DNA from: Candidatus Saccharimonadota bacterium
GTDB lineage: Bacteria > Patescibacteriota > Saccharimonadia > Saccharimonadales > UBA4665
Length of the DNA stretch: 64,000 bases
Reading direction: 5' to 3'
Assembly (NCBI GenBank): GCA_020427985.1
Contig: JAGQNR010000001.1
Coordinates: 1 to 64,000, forward strand
Positions 4,782 to 13,158 of the stretch are shown here, one piece after another. The notes under the pieces are model-generated. The model did no database searches and was not told the DNA's origin. It was given only the letters and a program-made list of their open reading frames with translations. The translations under genes were made by a program, and so were the position numbers. Each line of letters starts with the position of its first letter. Position 1 is the stretch's first letter.

Positions 4782-5036
4782 ATGACAGAAGATGTTTTTG
4801 ATACAAAAGAACGAGCAAAAGTAGTTGCAAAAGACATACTGACAGCCAATGAGTTGGTAAATCATCCCAACTTTACTTACACACCTAGTAAACAGCTGCG
4901 AGGCATAATGTCAGATGAAGAGATTGCTACGACCATAATGCACCTAAATCGGCACGGTGCATTAGAAATTGACGAAAGACGTATGTACTTAGGTGGATTA
5001 CACAGACATTCCACGATGAAATTGCAACTGAGCTAG
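4782..5036 (+). CDS. Hypothetical small protein, likely chimeric end
   Basis: 84 codons from ATG 4782 (a GTG 3 nt earlier is possible). No family recognised. The first ~70 residues look like a real soluble helical protein (many Lys/Asp/Glu, ending ALEIDERRMYLGG). The last ~14 residues overlap, in another frame, the recombinase fragment beginning at 4973, so the native C-terminus is probably lost at a junction near 4975-5000. It is transcribed away from the HTH gene at 4749. Confidence 0.4.
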   Translation: MTEDVFDTKERAKVVAKDILTANELVNHPNFTYTPSKQLRGIMSDEEIATTIMHLNRHGALEIDERRMYLGGLHRHSTMKLQLS

Positions 5037-5422
5037 AAAAGAAACAGCAGGAGCTAAATGACCGCCTAAAGTTGCTAACAAGCGACAATAAAGATTTTCA
5101 AGTTACCGCATCCTATCTGTTAGACTTGGCTCAACGAGCTGAACAGCTGTTCAATGAGGGCGATGAGGGGCTAAGACAGAAGTTGCTAGAATACGTACTT
5201 TCAAACATTGAACTAAAGGACAAAAAGCTGTCTTATATACTCAACGACCCCTTTAGAACAGTCGTTGAGACAAAGAAAAAGAGCCTTGCGGCTCATAATT
5301 CAAACATTTGGTGCCACATTTGCGACGTATTTCAAACTACATCAGCAGATAGAATCGATGCTTATAAACTGAGGGAGCTAGTAGGGATGTTCAATTTATC
5401 AGGAAACTTGCTCGAGGGCTAA
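4973..5422 (+). pseudogene. C-terminal fragment of a large serine recombinase
   Basis: The frame open from 4973 to the TAA at 5420-5422 encodes FHDEIATELEKKQQELNDRL, then YLLDLAQRAEQLF, then LEYVLSNIELKDKKLSYIL and NDPF. This is the coiled-coil and final strand of large serine recombinases, here without resolvase and zinc domains. About 45 residues of unfamiliar tail follow. It is a relic of an earlier mobile element beside the intact recombinase at 11445. Confidence 0.7.
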
Positions 5423-5423
5423 T

Positions 5424-5840
5424 TTACATGCCGAGTGTGAAAACTATAGTCGAAACGATTATCGCACTTATTAGATGGTAACCGCCCACTACAAGTCCAA
5501 AAATAACAGGTCGAGGCATATTCGGGGTCACACCATTACTGAAAGAAATTGCAGCTAAGCTAAATCCGAAGAGCAATCCAGTGATGACGGCATTAGCTAG
5601 GTTCTCTATATTAAGCGCGTTCATTACTATACCTATAGCAGTCGTTACAGCTAAGCTACTTAGAAATGGTGCATAGTAATAAATCGCGGGCCATTTCTGC
5701 TTAGAAGACCTTTTTACACCTGTACCTATATCGTATGCTTTTCCAAACAGTGGCGTAAACCAAATCGCACCAAGAATAAAGTATACAACTGTAGCAAGTA
5801 AGATTATTAGCCAGTTAATTTCATTTAATGTATTAAACAT
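5424..5840 (-). CDS. DUF1761 family membrane protein
   Basis: 138 residues with four predicted membrane helices (about 10-28, 52-72, 80-100, 110-132). The first helix ends with the conserved GAIWFTPLFG motif of DUF1761 proteins. The function of the family is unknown. It is followed closely on the same strand by the DUF6157 gene upstream (10 nt gap), with a TCTCCTT complement (AAGGAG) just before the ATG at 5840. Confidence 0.8.
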   Translation of the reverse strand: MFNTLNEINWLIILLATVVYFILGAIWFTPLFGKAYDIGTGVKRSSKQKWPAIYYYAPFLSSLAVTTAIGIVMNALNIENLANAVITGLLFGFSLAAISFSNGVTPNMPRPVIFGLVVGGYHLISAIIVSTIVFTLGM

Positions 5841-5849
5841 ATATTCTCC

Positions 5850-6251
5850 TTATGCTCTTTTCGATCGCATCGCTTTTAGTTGTTTGACGGTTGGGTCATT
5901 GGCAAGTCGTTCATATTCACTTGAGTCAGCAGGATAAATAGCTATCTTGCCCTCAGAGTCACTGTGAACACCCCACCCATATCTTTTTCCTAGCGGCGAA
6001 GAACGAAAACACGGTTGACCTTTCGAGAAGTACTTTTCTCGTTCGGCCTGATTCGGCTCTACATGATTGCGCTCGGCATAAATCCCGAATGTTATGTCGT
6101 CGGAAGTAAACTTGTATGGATTATTTGCGACCATATCGTACTGCATACTTGCTATTGTAGGCTTGTCATTCTTTGCTACGGGCACCTCTGCAACTGTAAT
6201 CGGAGAATCTTCGGCTATTCGGATTAACGTGTCGTAATCGTTCGTCGTCAT
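5850..6251 (-). CDS. DUF6157 family protein
   Basis: 133 residues. Conserved blocks seen: DTLIRIAEDSPITVAEVP, NNPYKFTSDDI, FFSKGQPCFR-like SKGQPCFRSSPLGKRYGWG, and the terminal LKAMRSKRA. These match the DUF6157 pattern as I know it; function is unknown. It leads a two-gene minus-strand unit with DUF1761. Both are typical small accessory genes. Confidence 0.7.
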   Translation of the reverse strand: MTTNDYDTLIRIAEDSPITVAEVPVAKNDKPTIASMQYDMVANNPYKFTSDDITFGIYAERNHVEPNQAEREKYFSKGQPCFRSSPLGKRYGWGVHSDSEGKIAIYPADSSEYERLANDPTVKQLKAMRSKRA

Positions 6252-6341: not shown

Positions 6342-6368
6342 ACAGGGGTAATAACACAATTTTCTGAT

Positions 6369-6482
6369 GGTGCGGATCTACAGAATGTAATTAAACTTTT
6401 TGAAGCGTTGGTTGACGGTCGGCTATCAGGCTTACCATCTATTGCGATGGTTAATCAAAGCAGTGAAAAGATTATCTACTAA
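6369..6482 (+). pseudogene. Recombinase C-terminal tail, copy 1 (left-end scar)
   Basis: From the attachment core GGTGCG, 37 codons run to a TAA: GADLQNVIKLFEALVDGRLS, ending in SSEKIIY. The phase is the same as the recombinase codons GGT GCG at 13083-13088. Homologous tails of exactly the same length occur at 6985 and 7577. Confidence 0.65.
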
Positions 6483-6492
6483 TAGTTAGTGT

Positions 6493-6930
6493 TTATTTTC
6501 CCGTTTTCCATAATATTCTGTCTATCGGTCCCTCTTGAGATATTGACCGTATGTTGTCATATGATTGTTGCAATATATCTTTAAGGACTGGCAATTCTAT
6601 ATCACTAAGCCGTTTAACCACAACACAATATCCAGTTGTCGTATGATTGCCTAGCTTATCTAATAAAGTCGCATAACGGGCTGTTCCATCCATTAAGTAA
6701 ATGGTAATTTTACCTTTCCTCGGATAAAAACTGAGGATTTGACTATCCCCCTCGCGACCACTGTCGTACTTATAATGGTACGAACCAAAACCTATAGTGT
6801 GTTCGTTCCATATTTTAGGTTCGGCGTTGCTTATTAGTTGCATTGTCTCAAAAAGGATTTCGCTATCTTTTAGTGTATCCTCATCTAATGTTGCGAGCAC
6901 ATCTTGAACGGGCTTATTAGTATTTATCAT
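6493..6930 (-). CDS. DUF1801 domain protein
   Basis: 145 residues. The DUF1801 core is visible as IGFGSYHYKYDSGREGD, then LSFYPRKGKITIYLM, then LLDKLGNHTTTGYC and VVVKRLSDI. Structures of this fold resemble frataxin-like iron-binding proteins, but the biochemical role of this branch is unknown. It is the only gene of a ~616-bp cassette (6368-6983). Its stop nearly meets the stop of the plus-strand tail (6482). Confidence 0.75.
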   Translation of the reverse strand: MINTNKPVQDVLATLDEDTLKDSEILFETMQLISNAEPKIWNEHTIGFGSYHYKYDSGREGDSQILSFYPRKGKITIYLMDGTARYATLLDKLGNHTTTGYCVVVKRLSDIELPVLKDILQQSYDNIRSISQEGPIDRILWKTGK

Positions 6931-6947
6931 AGGATAATAATAGCAAA

Positions 6948-6967
6948 AATACGCCCGAGAGCATATT
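6948..6967. repeat. Palindromic block left of core copy 2
   Basis: AATACGCCC-GA-GAGCATATT is a 20-bp imperfect palindrome (7 of 9 pairs) centred on GA. It lies 16 nt left of the TGGTGC core. A better palindrome holds the same place at 7539-7558. Confidence 0.45.
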
Positions 6968-6984
6968 TGACAATTTGCAAAATT

Positions 6985-7098
6985 GGTGCAACTTTACAGA
7001 GTTTACTCAAACTTTTCTCCGCACTTGTAGATGGCCGGGTTTCAAAGCTTTCGACCACCCCAAGTATCGGAGAAAGCAAAAGACTGATTATTTATTAA
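6985..7098 (+). pseudogene. Recombinase C-terminal tail, copy 2
   Basis: GGT GCA followed by 35 more codons and TAA: GATLQSLLKLFSALVDGRVS, ending in KRLIIY. It aligns without gaps with the tails at 6369 and 7577. The core here has decayed to TGGTGCA. The stop overlaps the stop of the minus-strand gene at 7095. Confidence 0.6.
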
Positions 7099-7445
7099 GC
7101 AACCACCTTCTGCACAATATCAGCTATTTTCGCTTCTGCTTTGTCATTCAGTTTACTTAAATACCAAGCAGACGCTACTGGACCCTCTTGTGGGCTACCC
7201 AATTCCGCAAGGTTGGTATTTTCGGTAATTCCAAAGCTTACAAACTTATCTGCGCGAAAGAATAGCACAACTGGTCCATCGCTCTTGAGCGCATAGCCAG
7301 GCATTCCGTACCACAGCCTAGGCTGTAACTGCGGAGCAATCATTGTAATAAGCTCGTGCAGCCGCATTCCCATAGCACGATACTCGTCGCTAAATTTTTC
7401 TATTTTGGCTAGTACGTCCTGTACGCCAGCTTCATTTTTGTCCAT
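7095..7445 (-). CDS. DUF1801-family protein, iron-chaperone-like subgroup
   Basis: 116 residues. The characteristic core reads PRLWYGMPGYA, then VVLFFRADKFVSFGITE, as in YdhG/FrataxinN-like small proteins. The start at 7445 is supported by a GGAGATG-type site upstream (complement of catctcctt). It is the only gene of the second small cassette (6984-7575). It shares VQDVLA near its N-terminus with the neighbouring DUF1801 protein but otherwise belongs to another branch. Confidence 0.75.
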   Translation of the reverse strand: MDKNEAGVQDVLAKIEKFSDEYRAMGMRLHELITMIAPQLQPRLWYGMPGYALKSDGPVVLFFRADKFVSFGITENTNLAELGSPQEGPVASAWYLSKLNDKAEAKIADIVQKVVA

Positions 7446-7538
7446 AGGACATCTCCTTGTTTAGAGTTGTATGAATTATTTGGCGATCAGGCTGAAAAAA
7501 CTTCAAATTGATCAGTACTACTATTGTACCATATGAAA

Positions 7539-7558
7539 AATACGCTAGATAGCGTATT
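7539..7558. repeat. Perfect 20-bp palindrome left of core copy 3
   Basis: AATACGCTA-GA-TAGCGTATT is a perfect inverted repeat around a central GA. It is followed by TTGACAA and then the core at 7576. The flanking sequence matches that left of core copy 2 (AAAAATACGC, TATTTGACAA, AAAATTGGTGC). A dyad with a 2-bp centre is what a serine recombinase site or a repressor operator would look like. Confidence 0.5.
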
Positions 7559-7576
7559 TGACAAATCTTTAAAATT

Positions 7577-7690
7577 GGTGCGGTAGAACAGAATCTGCTC
7601 AAACTTTTCAATGCTGTATTAGATGGCAGACTTTCAAATGTATTAGCCCTGCCTCCAGTTGCGAAACAAACTAAAAAGATTATTTACTAG
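7577..7690 (+). pseudogene. Recombinase C-terminal tail, copy 3
   Basis: GGT GCG then 35 codons to TAG: GAVEQNLLKLFNAVLDGRLS, ending in TKKIIY. This copy directly bounds the part of the element that contains the recombinase gene. It is therefore the best candidate for that enzyme's own lost C-terminus. Confidence 0.65.
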
Positions 7691-7743: not shown

Positions 7744-8478
7744 ATGAAACTAATGACACTCAATGTATGGCAAGGACGTCTTGAGAGGGTCCTATTAAAA
7801 CATCTCGAACAACAAAATTTTGACTTTGCATGTATGCAAGAAGCAGTGGACTATGGCGGCAAAACAGGTGGCATAATTAGTTCTTATTCGACGATTGGCA
7901 AGAGCTTACGTCTTGACCACCAGTTCTTTTCGCCGTTAAATGCTACGAAGTTCGGTAAGAATGAAATCTCATTCGGAAACGTAATCTACTCAAAACTACC
8001 ATTTACTCTAAGTGAAAATACCTTCACTCGTGGTTCTTACAAAGCTGATTTTGATTTCGATGAAGACGATTACAACATAAGAGCACTTCAACATGTCGCA
8101 TTAGGGGTCGAGGGCAAGAAGCTACATATACTCAATCACCACGGACATCACATAGACGCTCATAAGCTAGGTGATGATGAAACGCTGCGGCAAACCTCAA
8201 TGATAATCGACTACATTAAGAAGCTCGATGGAGCAGTAATACTTTGTGGAGACTTCAACTTATCACCAGAAAGTGAATCTATTAAACAGTTCGATTCTGT
8301 CTTAAAAAACCTATCTGTAGATTATTCATTAGAAACAACACGTTCGCTCTTAACCTACAAGAATGAGGTGTGTGATTACATCTTTGTTAATGACGAGGTA
8401 GATATTCAAGACTTCTCCATGGATCAAACGATAATCTCTGACCATAACGCTCTGATTCTAGACTTCGAGCTTAAATAA
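7744..8478 (+). CDS. Endonuclease/exonuclease/phosphatase (EEP) family hydrolase
   Basis: 244 residues covering a single EEP (DNase I-like) domain. The ordered motifs are visible: LNVWQG at the N-terminus, CMQEAV near residue 31 (metal Glu), NHHGHH near 136, CGDFNLSP near 175 (catalytic Asp/Asn), CDYIFV near 218, and ISDHNALI near the end (catalytic His). Relatives cleave phosphodiesters of DNA, RNA or lipids; the substrate is unknown. No signal peptide, so it is cytoplasmic. It is the first cargo gene of the recombinase-bearing element. Confidence 0.85.
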   Translation: MKLMTLNVWQGRLERVLLKHLEQQNFDFACMQEAVDYGGKTGGIISSYSTIGKSLRLDHQFFSPLNATKFGKNEISFGNVIYSKLPFTLSENTFTRGSYKADFDFDEDDYNIRALQHVALGVEGKKLHILNHHGHHIDAHKLGDDETLRQTSMIIDYIKKLDGAVILCGDFNLSPESESIKQFDSVLKNLSVDYSLETTRSLLTYKNEVCDYIFVNDEVDIQDFSMDQTIISDHNALILDFELK

Positions 8479-8493
8479 CCATAAGTAGTACTG

Positions 8494-8618
8494 GACATAA
8501 TGTCTATTTCATGTCGCACAATACTGATTGCACGACACACACTAACAGGGGTAACGTCTATTTTTTAGCGACATAGGTGCGTGTCAAGTGCTTGTGCGAT
8601 TTTCGCCCACCCCTGTTA
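8494..8618. repeat. Intergenic region with several inverted repeats
   Basis: Contains GACATaATGTC (8494-8504), TAACAGGGGT at 8543-8552 inverted as ACCCCTGTTA at 8609-8618, and TCGCACAA at 8514-8521 inverted as TTGTGCGA at 8592-8599. The arms are not simply nested. No gene is seen. It separates the EEP gene from the convergent dehydrogenase gene. Confidence 0.5.
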
Positions 8619-8644
8619 ATAAGTATATTATGCAATAATTGGTT

Positions 8645-9535
8645 TTAGTGGCTTTGATTCAGGAACTGCTTGAGATTTTCAATAACTTTATCTCCAAGCC
8701 TTAGCTTTGTTTCTTGGGTATGTCCAGCCACTATTTTTGGAAAAACTACGTTGGGTAAATCTTTGTAAGCATCATAGCTCTCGCTACCAGCAGAGTAATC
8801 AAACACTGCAAAATTGTTATTTTCTCCGATCCATTTGATGAAGGCGTCTCTATCCAGACAATTACCCATACTAGCTTGAACTAGAACACTGTTGGGTTTG
8901 ATGTGTGAAAAATCATTATTGTCCAGAGCCTGTAGATTACTTGGTGTACTAACAATGATTACATTACTGCTAGATAATAAATCTGCTTTTTCTTTGTATT
9001 GCAGACCTTGCTGTTCCCAGTCTGGCTTACGGGTTCTGCTGTAGTACAGCACATTCATTTTGTACGCTAAGGCTAAACGAGCAATAGCTTGCCCTAAGGC
9101 ACCAAGACCAACGATGCCTATGGTCTTACCCATAAGTTCGGTGGGGTACTCTTTCCACTGGTACTGTCCCATGCCTCTCGCTAGAGACTCTAGTTGCATG
9201 AAAATAAACTCTGCCGCTGGTTCGTCTCCGTAGTCAGAAACATTGGTCAAAACTATATTCCTACTTGCTAGAGCTTCCTGATCTACGTTCTCCTTCGCCG
9301 TTCCACAAATGCCAATGTATTTAACATGAGGACAAGCCTCCAGATACGAAGAAGCGATTGTAGTGCCTGGACTTATAAGGACTATTTCTGCATCGCCAGT
9401 CCGCTCTATTAACGCTTGTTCGGTTGGCTGGCTATCGTCTTCTGGAAACTCAATAGATGAATCAAATAGCTCCTTAATGCCGTTTTGTGTTTCAGTCAAT
9501 AAGTGTACGTTAGCTAATATAGCGAGTCTACTCAT
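8645..9535 (-). CDS. D-isomer-specific 2-hydroxyacid dehydrogenase-like protein
   Basis: 296 residues from ATG 9535 (MSRLAILANV), chosen because it overlaps the upstream stop by one base (TAATG); the longer frame to 9577 would lie inside the upstream gene. The Rossmann domain shows GKTIGIVGLGALGQAIA and the FDYSAGSESYD region replaces the usual substrate-closing segment. The catalytic Arg and His positions of the family are hard to place: GH in IVAGHTQET could be the His. A reductase of 2-keto acids is expected by family, but with divergence in the active site. It is coupled to an Abi-like gene, which is unusual. Confidence 0.75.
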   Translation of the reverse strand: MSRLAILANVHLLTETQNGIKELFDSSIEFPEDDSQPTEQALIERTGDAEIVLISPGTTIASSYLEACPHVKYIGICGTAKENVDQEALASRNIVLTNVSDYGDEPAAEFIFMQLESLARGMGQYQWKEYPTELMGKTIGIVGLGALGQAIARLALAYKMNVLYYSRTRKPDWEQQGLQYKEKADLLSSSNVIIVSTPSNLQALDNNDFSHIKPNSVLVQASMGNCLDRDAFIKWIGENNNFAVFDYSAGSESYDAYKDLPNVVFPKIVAGHTQETKLRLGDKVIENLKQFLNQSH

Positions 9536-10428
9536 TAAGCTTTCCTCGCAATCAAGCCACTTGAAAACATCTGACAAATAGTTATGGCTATGTAGACTGC
9601 TGATTCCGCTTCAAGCTGAGAAGGATTAGTGTAGTTGCCAGTTGCATGTCTATCCGTCTGACTCTTCCAAAGCCTTTGCATTAATGAATGAGCAGTGTCT
9701 GATGTCGTAATTGCGTCTTTGTCTTTGAAGCCTACATTAAACTTTCCAGCTTTAGTCTGTGCTTCAAAATCATTAAGCATCGTGCCAAGTGTCGCTTTCA
9801 TGTTATTGGGTGTTATTACCTTCCAGGTTGCAGCTTCTACTGCTTTTATCGCATTAGTATAAGCACCAGAAAGGTCTGGATTCCTACCAAAACAATCTTC
9901 CCATGCAGTCTTCAAATGCTTAGAAAAGTCAGAATTGTCATTAATCAGGTGCTTATAGGCATTTATGGTGGTTGAGTCTACTCTTGACTCCACTCTTGCA
10001 TTTGAGTCCTCTATTACTACATGCCATTTTGAGCCACCTTTTATTAAAATGTCATTCAATCTATCAATATCGGAACGAACAATGACTTTACTTTCCCAGG
10101 CATTTTTTCTATCCTTAATTTCCGCTATTTCAACTGTGGCTTGCAAAATATCAAGTGCATGGTCAGTGTTTGCAGCAAAAACTTTATAAAGCCCGCTATA
10201 TAAAGGGTAGTCTTCACTATTTGATCCAAAAGTTAATCTGCAATGTAGCTCTACTTCGTGGAGGTAGTTATTGTGGTATTTTGTTTTACCGTTATGGTCA
10301 GTATATTTGAACTTTGAACCCAACCAGTTCCAGATACTACTTTCCATCCATTTTGGAACACCATCATATAAAGCTTCGTTACCCGCAAGAGGCACTTTAC
10401 GCTTAGATGGTATTCGATGTTCTGCCAT
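9535..10428 (-). CDS. Abortive infection (Abi_C/HEPN-like) family protein
   Basis: 297 residues. The C-terminal third has the layout of Abi C-terminal domains: DLSGAYTNAIKAVEAA, TPNNMKATLGTML, then QRLWKSQTDRHATG and a final AESAVYIAITICQMF helix. The conserved His-containing turn (DRHATG) suggests a HEPN-type fold, whose members are often RNases, though the classic RxxxxxxH spacing is not exact. The N-terminal part is unfamiliar. It is located inside a mobile element and coupled to a dehydrogenase, which is consistent with a defence role but does not prove it. Confidence 0.6.
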   Translation of the reverse strand: MAEHRIPSKRKVPLAGNEALYDGVPKWMESSIWNWLGSKFKYTDHNGKTKYHNNYLHEVELHCRLTFGSNSEDYPLYSGLYKVFAANTDHALDILQATVEIAEIKDRKNAWESKVIVRSDIDRLNDILIKGGSKWHVVIEDSNARVESRVDSTTINAYKHLINDNSDFSKHLKTAWEDCFGRNPDLSGAYTNAIKAVEAATWKVITPNNMKATLGTMLNDFEAQTKAGKFNVGFKDKDAITTSDTAHSLMQRLWKSQTDRHATGNYTNPSQLEAESAVYIAITICQMFSSGLIARKA

Positions 10429-11444: not shown

Positions 11445-13139
11445 ATGCCAGAGCTAAATGATACACAGAAGTTACTAGAACTTCTCCAAGCTGGTCAACC
11501 TAAACCACCATCAGAGGTCGATACAAGCACTGTTCGTTATGCTCTTTATGCCCGTAAATCAACTACCAGCGAAGACAGACAAGCTAGTTCCATCGAAGAC
11601 CAAATTAAAGAGTGCATGGAAAAGCTTGTATCCCCCAACAACCTACGAATTGTTCAAGTGTATGAAGAGAGCTACTCAGCCAAGATAGCCGACACTCGCC
11701 CAAGATTTAATGCCATGATAAACGAGATTGAGAATGGTCGAATAGACGGTGTTATTTCGTGGCACCCTGATAGGCTCTCTCGCAACATGAAAGAAGCAGG
11801 ATCGATTATCGACTTAGTAGATAGAGGTCTGATAAAACACTTGTTATTTCCCACGTTCACTTTTGAGAATACACCAGCTGGCAAGATGTTATTAGGCATT
11901 ACGTTTGTTATGGCTAAGCAATACTCAGAACACTTGTCAGAATCAGTAGACAGAGGAAATAAGCGAGCTATTGAGGATAGGACATTATTTATAGGCAAAT
12001 TTAAGCATGGTTATGTCGTAGACGTAGACCGATACTTCCAGCCCGATCCTCACAACTTCACTAAGGTCAAAGAGATGTTCACAATGGCTCTAAGCGGCAA
12101 ATCTCAAAAAGACTTACGGCTATGGATCAACAAACAAAACTATACTGTCCAGAAGCTTCCTGGCGGTGAATATAAGTCGCATGTATGGGATAAAGATGAT
12201 GTATCAAAACTACTCAAAGACCCTCATTATGCTGGTGTACACAAATGGGGTAAGAGCCTAACAAACCTAGTCGAGGCTTATGATTTTGAACCAATGATAA
12301 CTGTTGATGAGTATCTCAAAATAAATAGGATAGTCAGCCTGAACTCGTCTAAGGTATATGCAATTAGTAGTCCAAAGAGTGGTGATATAGCTGCTGATTT
12401 ACTTCGTGGCATGGTCTATTGTTCAAAGTGTAATAAGACCCTTACCTCAATGCTAATACCTAAAAAAGATAAAGACGGTAATGTCCACCATGCTCGCTAT
12501 TACTACAAATGTGAGACAGAGGGTTGTACTATGGAGAACAAATCAGCTCGTGCTGCGATTGTCATAGAAGCCGCACAGCAGTTCTTCCAGCAATACCTAT
12601 TCGTGACTAAGAGCAACTACGCAGACTATGTCAAAAAGGCTGAGGCAGAAGCCAACCGCAAAGCGGAAGAGTTCACTAGTGCAATAGCTAGACATAAAAT
12701 ACTCATAGCCAACAAGGAGAAGTCCTACGAAGATACAAAACAACTAGTCGCTAATAACCCAGAACTTAAAGAACACTATGACCTTGATAAGTACGCAAAA
12801 GAGATCAAAAAACTAAAGTCAGAGTATCAAAAGGCTAATGACTCAAAACAGAGAATAAAGAGTGCTATTCCAAGCTTCGAGGAATATCTCAAACTATTAG
12901 AATCTACCCCTGTTATTCTAAGTAAAATACGAGATATGAAGACAATGGACACATTTCTGCGAATCTTCTTCTCTAACTTCACGATCTACCCGATTAAAGA
13001 TGGTACTTTTAAGGGGTCAAAAGTAACCTATAAACTAAATGAACCCTGGCAAGGGTTCATTGATGACGATGATTTCGTTCGTGGTGCGGGTCAGGGGACT
13101 CTAACCCCTGGCCTCGTCCTTGGCAAGGACGCGCTCTAA
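11445..13139 (+). CDS. Large serine recombinase (integrase) with tRNA-derived C-terminus
   Basis: 564 residues. The resolvase domain (about 30-175) has YALYARKSTTSEDRQASSIEDQ with the nucleophile Ser in ARKS, and the WHPDRLSRN motif. The recombinase domain covers about 195-330. A zinc ribbon has CSKCNK and, further on, CETEGC. A coiled coil spans about 385-470, and the final strand is YKLNEPWQGFI. The last 18 codons (from GGT at 13083) read antisense through the tRNA-Gly gene, so the natural C-terminus has been replaced at integration. The native tail is probably one of the 37-codon tails, giving about 583 residues. It catalyses insertion and excision by a cut through a 2-bp core with Ser-DNA links. 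Confidence 0.92.
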   Translation: MPELNDTQKLLELLQAGQPKPPSEVDTSTVRYALYARKSTTSEDRQASSIEDQIKECMEKLVSPNNLRIVQVYEESYSAKIADTRPRFNAMINEIENGRIDGVISWHPDRLSRNMKEAGSIIDLVDRGLIKHLLFPTFTFENTPAGKMLLGITFVMAKQYSEHLSESVDRGNKRAIEDRTLFIGKFKHGYVVDVDRYFQPDPHNFTKVKEMFTMALSGKSQKDLRLWINKQNYTVQKLPGGEYKSHVWDKDDVSKLLKDPHYAGVHKWGKSLTNLVEAYDFEPMITVDEYLKINRIVSLNSSKVYAISSPKSGDIAADLLRGMVYCSKCNKTLTSMLIPKKDKDGNVHHARYYYKCETEGCTMENKSARAAIVIEAAQQFFQQYLFVTKSNYADYVKKAEAEANRKAEEFTSAIARHKILIANKEKSYEDTKQLVANNPELKEHYDLDKYAKEIKKLKSEYQKANDSKQRIKSAIPSFEEYLKLLESTPVILSKIRDMKTMDTFLRIFFSNFTIYPIKDGTFKGSKVTYKLNEPWQGFIDDDDFVRGAGQGTLTPGLVLGKDAL

Positions 13140-13158
13140 ACAACTGAGCTAGACCCGC
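13082..13158 (-). tRNA. tRNA-Gly (anticodon GCC), attachment site of the element
   Basis: Minus-strand cloverleaf: acceptor GCGGGTC/GACCCGC, D stem GCTC/GAGC, anticodon stem CGTCC/GGACG with loop TTGCCAA, T stem AGGGG/CCCCT, encoded CCA at 13084-13082. The D loop AGTTGTTTA has T at position 19 and the T loop TTAGAGT has A at position 56, a matched replacement of the nearly universal G19-C56 pair. The 3' half overlaps the recombinase reading frame in antisense. Confidence 0.93.

Follow-up and report, generated by a model that had tools for sequence, protein, structure and literature searches.

The window, a 64,000-nucleotide stretch of DNA, comes from a 0.98-Mb genome whose closest named relatives are Candidatus Saccharibacteria MAGs. 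On its plus strand, at 11445–13139, lies an open reading frame that we call int1. Its product meets the definition of a large serine recombinase (LSR), in which the Resolvase catalytic domain precedes Recombinase and zinc-ribbon domains and a coiled coil (Pfam Resolvase, Recombinase, and Zn_ribbon_recom, the zinc-ribbon match being slightly under its cut-off). RKS39 and R110 are conserved over 19 homologues, and the fold of an AF2 model matches those of SPbeta-, Bxb1-, and phiC31-type integrases in Foldseek. An NCBIfam match to CcrB is weak (1.8e-15, far under the cut-off). Codons 1–546 of int1 reach position 13082; the 18 codons that follow, up to the stop, are antisense to a tRNA gene.

That gene, a tRNA-Gly(gcc) called by ARAGORN on the minus strand at 13082–13158, is the attachment target, and its CCA end overlaps the 3′ end of int1. 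The overlap contains the right-hand core, TGGTGC (13082–13087, plus strand), which is the reverse complement of the GCACCA end of the tRNA. An earlier note on this locus, made without database searches, had overlooked this identity. When int1|tRNA junctions are compared with junctions between int1 and a second type of site in related loci (L022 and L036), homology extends through exactly these 6 nt and then disappears, as expected if recombination occurs within the core. Shortly before the core, at 13041–13058 on the plus strand, the 3′ end of int1 contains the inverted repeat GAACCC-tggcaa-GGGTTC, which is terminator-like when read from the tRNA.

Upstream of int1, three plus-strand frames of exactly 37 codons plus a stop begin at further cores. 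They lie at 6369–6482 (core 6368–6373), 6985–7098 (core 6984–6989), and 7577–7690 (core 7576–7581). These tails are identical to one another at 14 of 37 columns and share the phase of int1 codon 547 (GGT, at 13083), and int1 codons 1–546 joined to any of them encode 583 residues. Thus, the earlier note was right about the three frames, their phase, and a joined protein of about 583 residues. When a profile built from the three was searched against the close relatives L020, L021, L022, and L016, each yielded a single tail (E 3e-13 to 2e-5). With an alignment of seven tails as the query, this type, which we call tail1, was found in 30 of 393 Saccharimonadia genomes; the two weakest matches (G316 and G229, E 0.004–0.006) are probably noise. 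These profile matches across genera rule out a chance origin of the tails.

The tails are parts of an array that runs up to the tRNA. From left to right, it consists of a remnant of a second recombinase gene (int2) fused to a tail of another type and followed by two genes, then two short units each made of a tail and a DUF1801 gene, then a third tail separated by 3.9 kb from int1, and finally tRNA-Gly. Cassette 1 (616 bp, 6368–6983) comprises its tail, an antisense DUF1801 gene (6493–6930, minus strand), and a left att arm (6940–6983, plus strand) made of an inverted repeat, TATTTGACAA, and AAAAT; 34 nt of this arm are repeated at 7531–7564. Cassette 2 (592 bp, 6984–7575) has the same layout, with its DUF1801 gene at 7095–7445 on the minus strand and its arm at 7531–7575 on the plus strand. 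The arm is common to the right-hand ends of both cassettes, and other cassettes carry the same type. The two genes at the left of the array, encoding DUF1761 and DUF6157 proteins, are antisense (5424–6251, minus strand), and the cargo between the third tail and int1 (7744–10428) encodes an endonuclease/phosphatase family protein, a 2-hydroxyacid dehydrogenase-like protein, and one unknown protein. The claim that all three tails are lost C-termini of int1 holds only in part. The tail at 7577 alone belongs to int1's own element; the other two, at 6369 and 6985, are parts of cassettes without an int gene and are not displaced ends of this int1 copy.

Comparison with homologues supports the central proposal of the earlier note, that the att site lies within the coding 3′ end and that integration swaps the C-terminus. 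We took as close homologues of int1 the 12 with E below 1e-200. In 11 of these, a homologous tail lies upstream of int1 on the same strand and contig, where it marks the opposite end of the element. The distance is mostly 4–10 kb; the match in G243 is partial and lies at 1 kb. The tail of the 12th is on another contig. The int1 3′ end adjoins tRNA-Gly in most of these homologues, and among all close int homologues retrieved nearly every one ends at this tRNA, which begins 3 nt past the end of homology. The L022 and L036 junctions with the second tail type are in the wrong phase, so int1 there acquires a short out-of-phase end and no tail.

Neither a circular form nor an intact int that still carries its own tail was found among the homologues, in IMG/VR, or in phage records. 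IMG/VR held no close relative of int1 or int2, a scan with the int alignment returning distant LSRs only, and no phage record gave a match covering 80% of int plus tail. The search for full-length homologues ending in the tail, which the earlier note had suggested as a check, was negative. That note had also held that the idea would be refuted by homologues lacking the tail, and this is literally what is seen, because every intact homologue found is integrated; yet the tail that they lack is located where the idea predicts, at the opposite end of the element. Its other proposed refutation, tails on an unrelated protein family, was not seen. Long frames that precede tails of the second type in L194 and L089 were considered as such a family and rejected, since they contain no recognizable proteins. 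The existence of two enzyme forms, circular and integrated, is not shown, nor is any difference in activity between them.

A second LSR family, int2, follows the same arrangement. At L022, full elements stand in tandem, in the order tail1, int1|tail2, int2|tRNA-Gly. The int2 genes read the same core in a different phase from int1 (TGG TGC), and their tail, tail2, has a different sequence (WCxIxDVFQT...LxxLxxxFxLSxNL). Considering copies of at least 54% identity, and tallying by hand from two tables, tail2 lies 7–20 kb upstream on the same strand in 14 of 16 int2 copies, and it occurs in 57 of the 393 genomes of the Saccharimonadia class sample. The left end of the window array belongs to this family. 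The last 104 codons of int2 before the core (4997–5308, plus strand; 93% identical to int2 of L022) are fused in frame to a tail2 of 37 codons plus a stop (5309–5422, plus strand; core 5309–5314), and the 5′-truncated gene reads uninterrupted through the core into the tail (4997–5419). This fourth tail, at 5309–5419, was absent from the three listed in the earlier note. A second in-frame int2|tail2 fusion occurs at L093, and at L127 a short int1 remnant is fused to tail1. These fossils display the joined gene, and every in-frame fusion involves a truncated int remnant. Further LSRs have tails of 52 codons (L028, L029, and L031) or 44–45 codons (L027, L033, and L029), open in the phase of their int. 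More broadly, more than 50 LSR 3′ ends meet tRNA CCA ends with a constant offset, at tRNAs for Gly, Pro, Asn, Gln, Leu, Ser, Met, and Trp.

Several observations on int2 and its tail stand apart. Fragments of int2 in different genomes share the same first codon, codon 392 (window 4994–4997, L103 14396, L194 8865, L195, L196, and L197), mostly directly after a G-run (AGGGGG|ATTACACAGAC), and the DNA upstream is mostly unrelated. Codon 392 thus resembles a fixed breakpoint and could mark another place within int2 where recombination or insertion occurs. Two int2 homologues of 47–50% identity (L171 and L172) have no tRNA detected beside their 3′ ends. At L099 (7567 and 11428), tail2 lies at tRNA-Gln(ctg), its core altered to TGGCTGGG and matching that tRNA. 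Finally, two tail2 copies at L197 (3980 and 8896) have an identical 50-nt left flank, which may reflect a tandem duplication that included part of the tRNA end.

The tails evolve as coding sequence. Each of the 29 tail1 copies has an open frame of 36–40 codons, and omega is 0.35 for tail1 and 0.22 for tail2. From codon 11 to the end, pS is saturated at 0.78 (tail1) and 0.82 (tail2), and pN is 0.48 and 0.36; conservation of codons 11–37 as DNA only is rejected on these values. Over codons 1–10, pS is only 0.35 and 0.31, and the first ~30 nt of tail1 contain a fixed motif, GGTGC-N19-AAAC. The simplest reading is that these first ~30 nt double as a DNA site and that the remainder is under protein selection. 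The tails of int-less passenger cassettes are constrained as well (omega 0.38); therefore, such cassettes must occasionally provide an active recombinase with its tail. The ends of the tails are hydrophobic and strongly conserved (IIY in type 1, and FLI, FLL, or FLV in type 3). An AF2 model of the int2 C-terminus with its tail, at a mean pLDDT of 46, was not reliable enough for interpretation. ARAGORN found no tmRNA at the genome's Rfam match, leaving no host tag with which to compare the tail end.

Integron-like arrays with toxin–antitoxin, NUDIX, or DUF1801 cargo occur across Saccharimonadia. Many single-gene units of 540–900 bp were found, and in 45 of 57 cases the cargo gene lies on the strand opposite its tail. 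The cargo includes MazF/PemK, BrnT, and PIN toxins, NUDIX and DUF1801 proteins, glyoxalase, and histidine phosphatase. Toxin–antitoxin-like pairs (MazF/PemK, BrnT, and PIN) were observed in many cassettes (L089, L094, L095, L096, and L098), much like the cargo of large integron arrays. Among arrays that lack int, those at L090 and L092 lie beside tRNA-Gly and have three tails each, and one in G062:C7 has four to five. Cassette 2 of the window matches a lone 589-bp cassette that abuts tRNA-Gly at L112, in a genome of another family, with 76% identity from core to core. Cassette 1 and the beginning of the L111 element share 82% identity, starting exactly at the core. It is possible that cassettes are individually moved by the recombinase; the only support for this is that one cassette is homologous from core to core in two families, and excision and insertion are inferred.

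Insertion at the CCA end cuts the tRNA off from the sequence that originally followed it. In the 60 nt to the left of the core, 72 of 101 distinct cores have a hairpin and T-run that resemble a terminator when read from the tRNA; the corresponding figures are 36 of 101 for the opposite strand and 139 of 1010 for random 60-mers. Such hairpins lie inside the coding 3′ ends of both int1 and int2. The hairpin may serve as a replacement terminator, although termination of the tRNA is itself inferred.

We conclude that the locus is likely an integrative element with attP embedded in the 3′ end of the gene for its LSR. Established from sequence are the anatomy with the att site within the gene, the shared phase, a tRNA target that is kept intact, the displaced tail at the far end in relatives, coding selection on the tails, cassettes that share the core and the tail, and one cassette common to two families from core to core. 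The remaining steps are predicted. In the circular form, int would read through TGGTGC into the 37-codon tail, whose first ~30 nt would constitute the right half of attP and whose codons would form a functional C-terminal extension. Recombination with the CCA end of tRNA-Gly would split the gene, so that int ends in antisense tRNA and the tail comes to lie at the left end of the element. Cassettes without int, composed of a tail, usually an antisense cargo gene, and a left att arm, would use the same core, be moved in trans, and stack into integron-like arrays; the leftmost tail of an excised block would become the new C-terminus of int.

Tail-less int1 has all canonical LSR domains by Pfam, AF2, and Foldseek, without data on activity itself, and its alignment with solved integrases of the SPbeta, Bxb1, and phiC31 types extends from end to end. 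The tail would thus be an added regulatory or activity element and not a missing domain. It may be that the tailed circular form is the integration-competent enzyme and that integration leaves a tail-less form with reduced or altered function, which would make integration self-limiting. This step is inferred without activity data, and we see as much reason to doubt it as to accept it.

The main rival to this reading, which remains possible, is that the tail acts negatively. As a degradation signal or autoinhibitory segment, it would limit the circular-form enzyme, and its removal by integration would yield a stable integrated enzyme. The conserved hydrophobic tail ends are in keeping with this, as is the presence of every known LSR domain in the tail-less protein, and there is a precedent in the repressor of mycobacteriophage BPs, which loses a C-terminal tag on integration (PMC4557955). 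However, the constraint on the tails of int-less cassettes fits a need for re-integration better than a destructive tag. Because these tails stay under selection, we favor a positive role of the tail in integration.

Two other accounts fare less well. If the tails were merely att DNA, with a recombinase that tolerates any C-terminus and open frames that are by-products of a conserved right arm, then conservation of the first 30 nt beyond coding need would be explained, since pS there is far below the ~0.8 seen downstream. This account is very unlikely given the open frame and the amino-acid constraint from codon 11 up to 111 nt off the core, and the 36–40 codon length kept in every tail1 copy. 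An LSR half-site is about 25 bp, far shorter than 111 nt. The tails at 6369 and 6985 could instead be scars of earlier tandem integrations of full elements that lost int by deletion, and not ends of mobile cassettes. Tandem full elements do occur, as at L022, and truncated int2 remnants are found at several loci. This is nevertheless unlikely, given that cassettes 1 and 2 end in a common dedicated arm and not in an int 3′ end, that a unit of ~590 bp is found again, from core to core, standing alone in another family, and that single-gene units of 540–900 bp are many.

It is useful to contrast an LSR that splits its own gene with known systems. In archaeal suicidal integrases of the SSV type, which are tyrosine recombinases, the att site lies inside the integrase gene, the target is a tRNA, and integration splits the gene (PMC8371274). 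The att site within int and the splitting of the gene are seen here in two LSR families. However, the enzymes here are bacterial serine recombinases by Pfam and fold, and only a C-terminal extension of 37–52 residues is displaced, whereas the suicidal integrases are inactivated by displacement of the catalytic domain. In mycobacteriophage BPs, attP lies in a coding 3′ end, and integration replaces the C-terminus of the repressor, with 33 residues lost (PMC4557955). There, the switched protein is the repressor and not the integrase, the lost tail is a degradation tag, and no cassettes are involved. SCC elements are moved by Ccr proteins, which are LSRs, and stand in tandem at the end of one chromosomal gene, rlmH, as the elements described here do at a tRNA; the ccr genes, however, are not split by att. 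Integrons and CALINs are arrays of short single-gene cassettes, with toxin–antitoxin cargo, that occur with or without the recombinase gene. The arrays described here likewise combine a common recombination site with diverse cargo, but the tyrosine recombinase IntI and folded attC sites are replaced by an LSR, a TGGTGC core, and a coding right arm; moreover, the target is a tRNA end, and each cassette site encodes a C-terminal tail of the recombinase. The open-access literature that we searched contained no report of an LSR with att in its own gene and tail cassettes, which is weak evidence, as only open-access work was covered.

Before this work, self-disruption of integrase genes was described in review as exclusively archaeal and known from tyrosine enzymes only (PMC8371274). 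Here, two deeply diverged families of bacterial serine recombinases disrupt their own genes at tRNA CCA ends in many Saccharibacteria genera. The swap of the C-terminus offers a testable way in which the reaction itself could make a serine integrase one-way. For genome engineering, a natural removable C-terminal switch and LSRs that target the CCA ends of many tRNAs are both of interest. A bolder reading, toward which we remain slightly more skeptical than not, is that a serine recombinase counterpart of the integron is widespread in Saccharimonadia. Mobile cassette arrays would form at tRNA CCA ends, each site would encode a replacement C-terminus for the recombinase, and cassettes would compete to supply the activating tail for excision and re-integration. 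Overall, our work points to integron-like gene capture in a phylum with poorly characterized mobile DNA.
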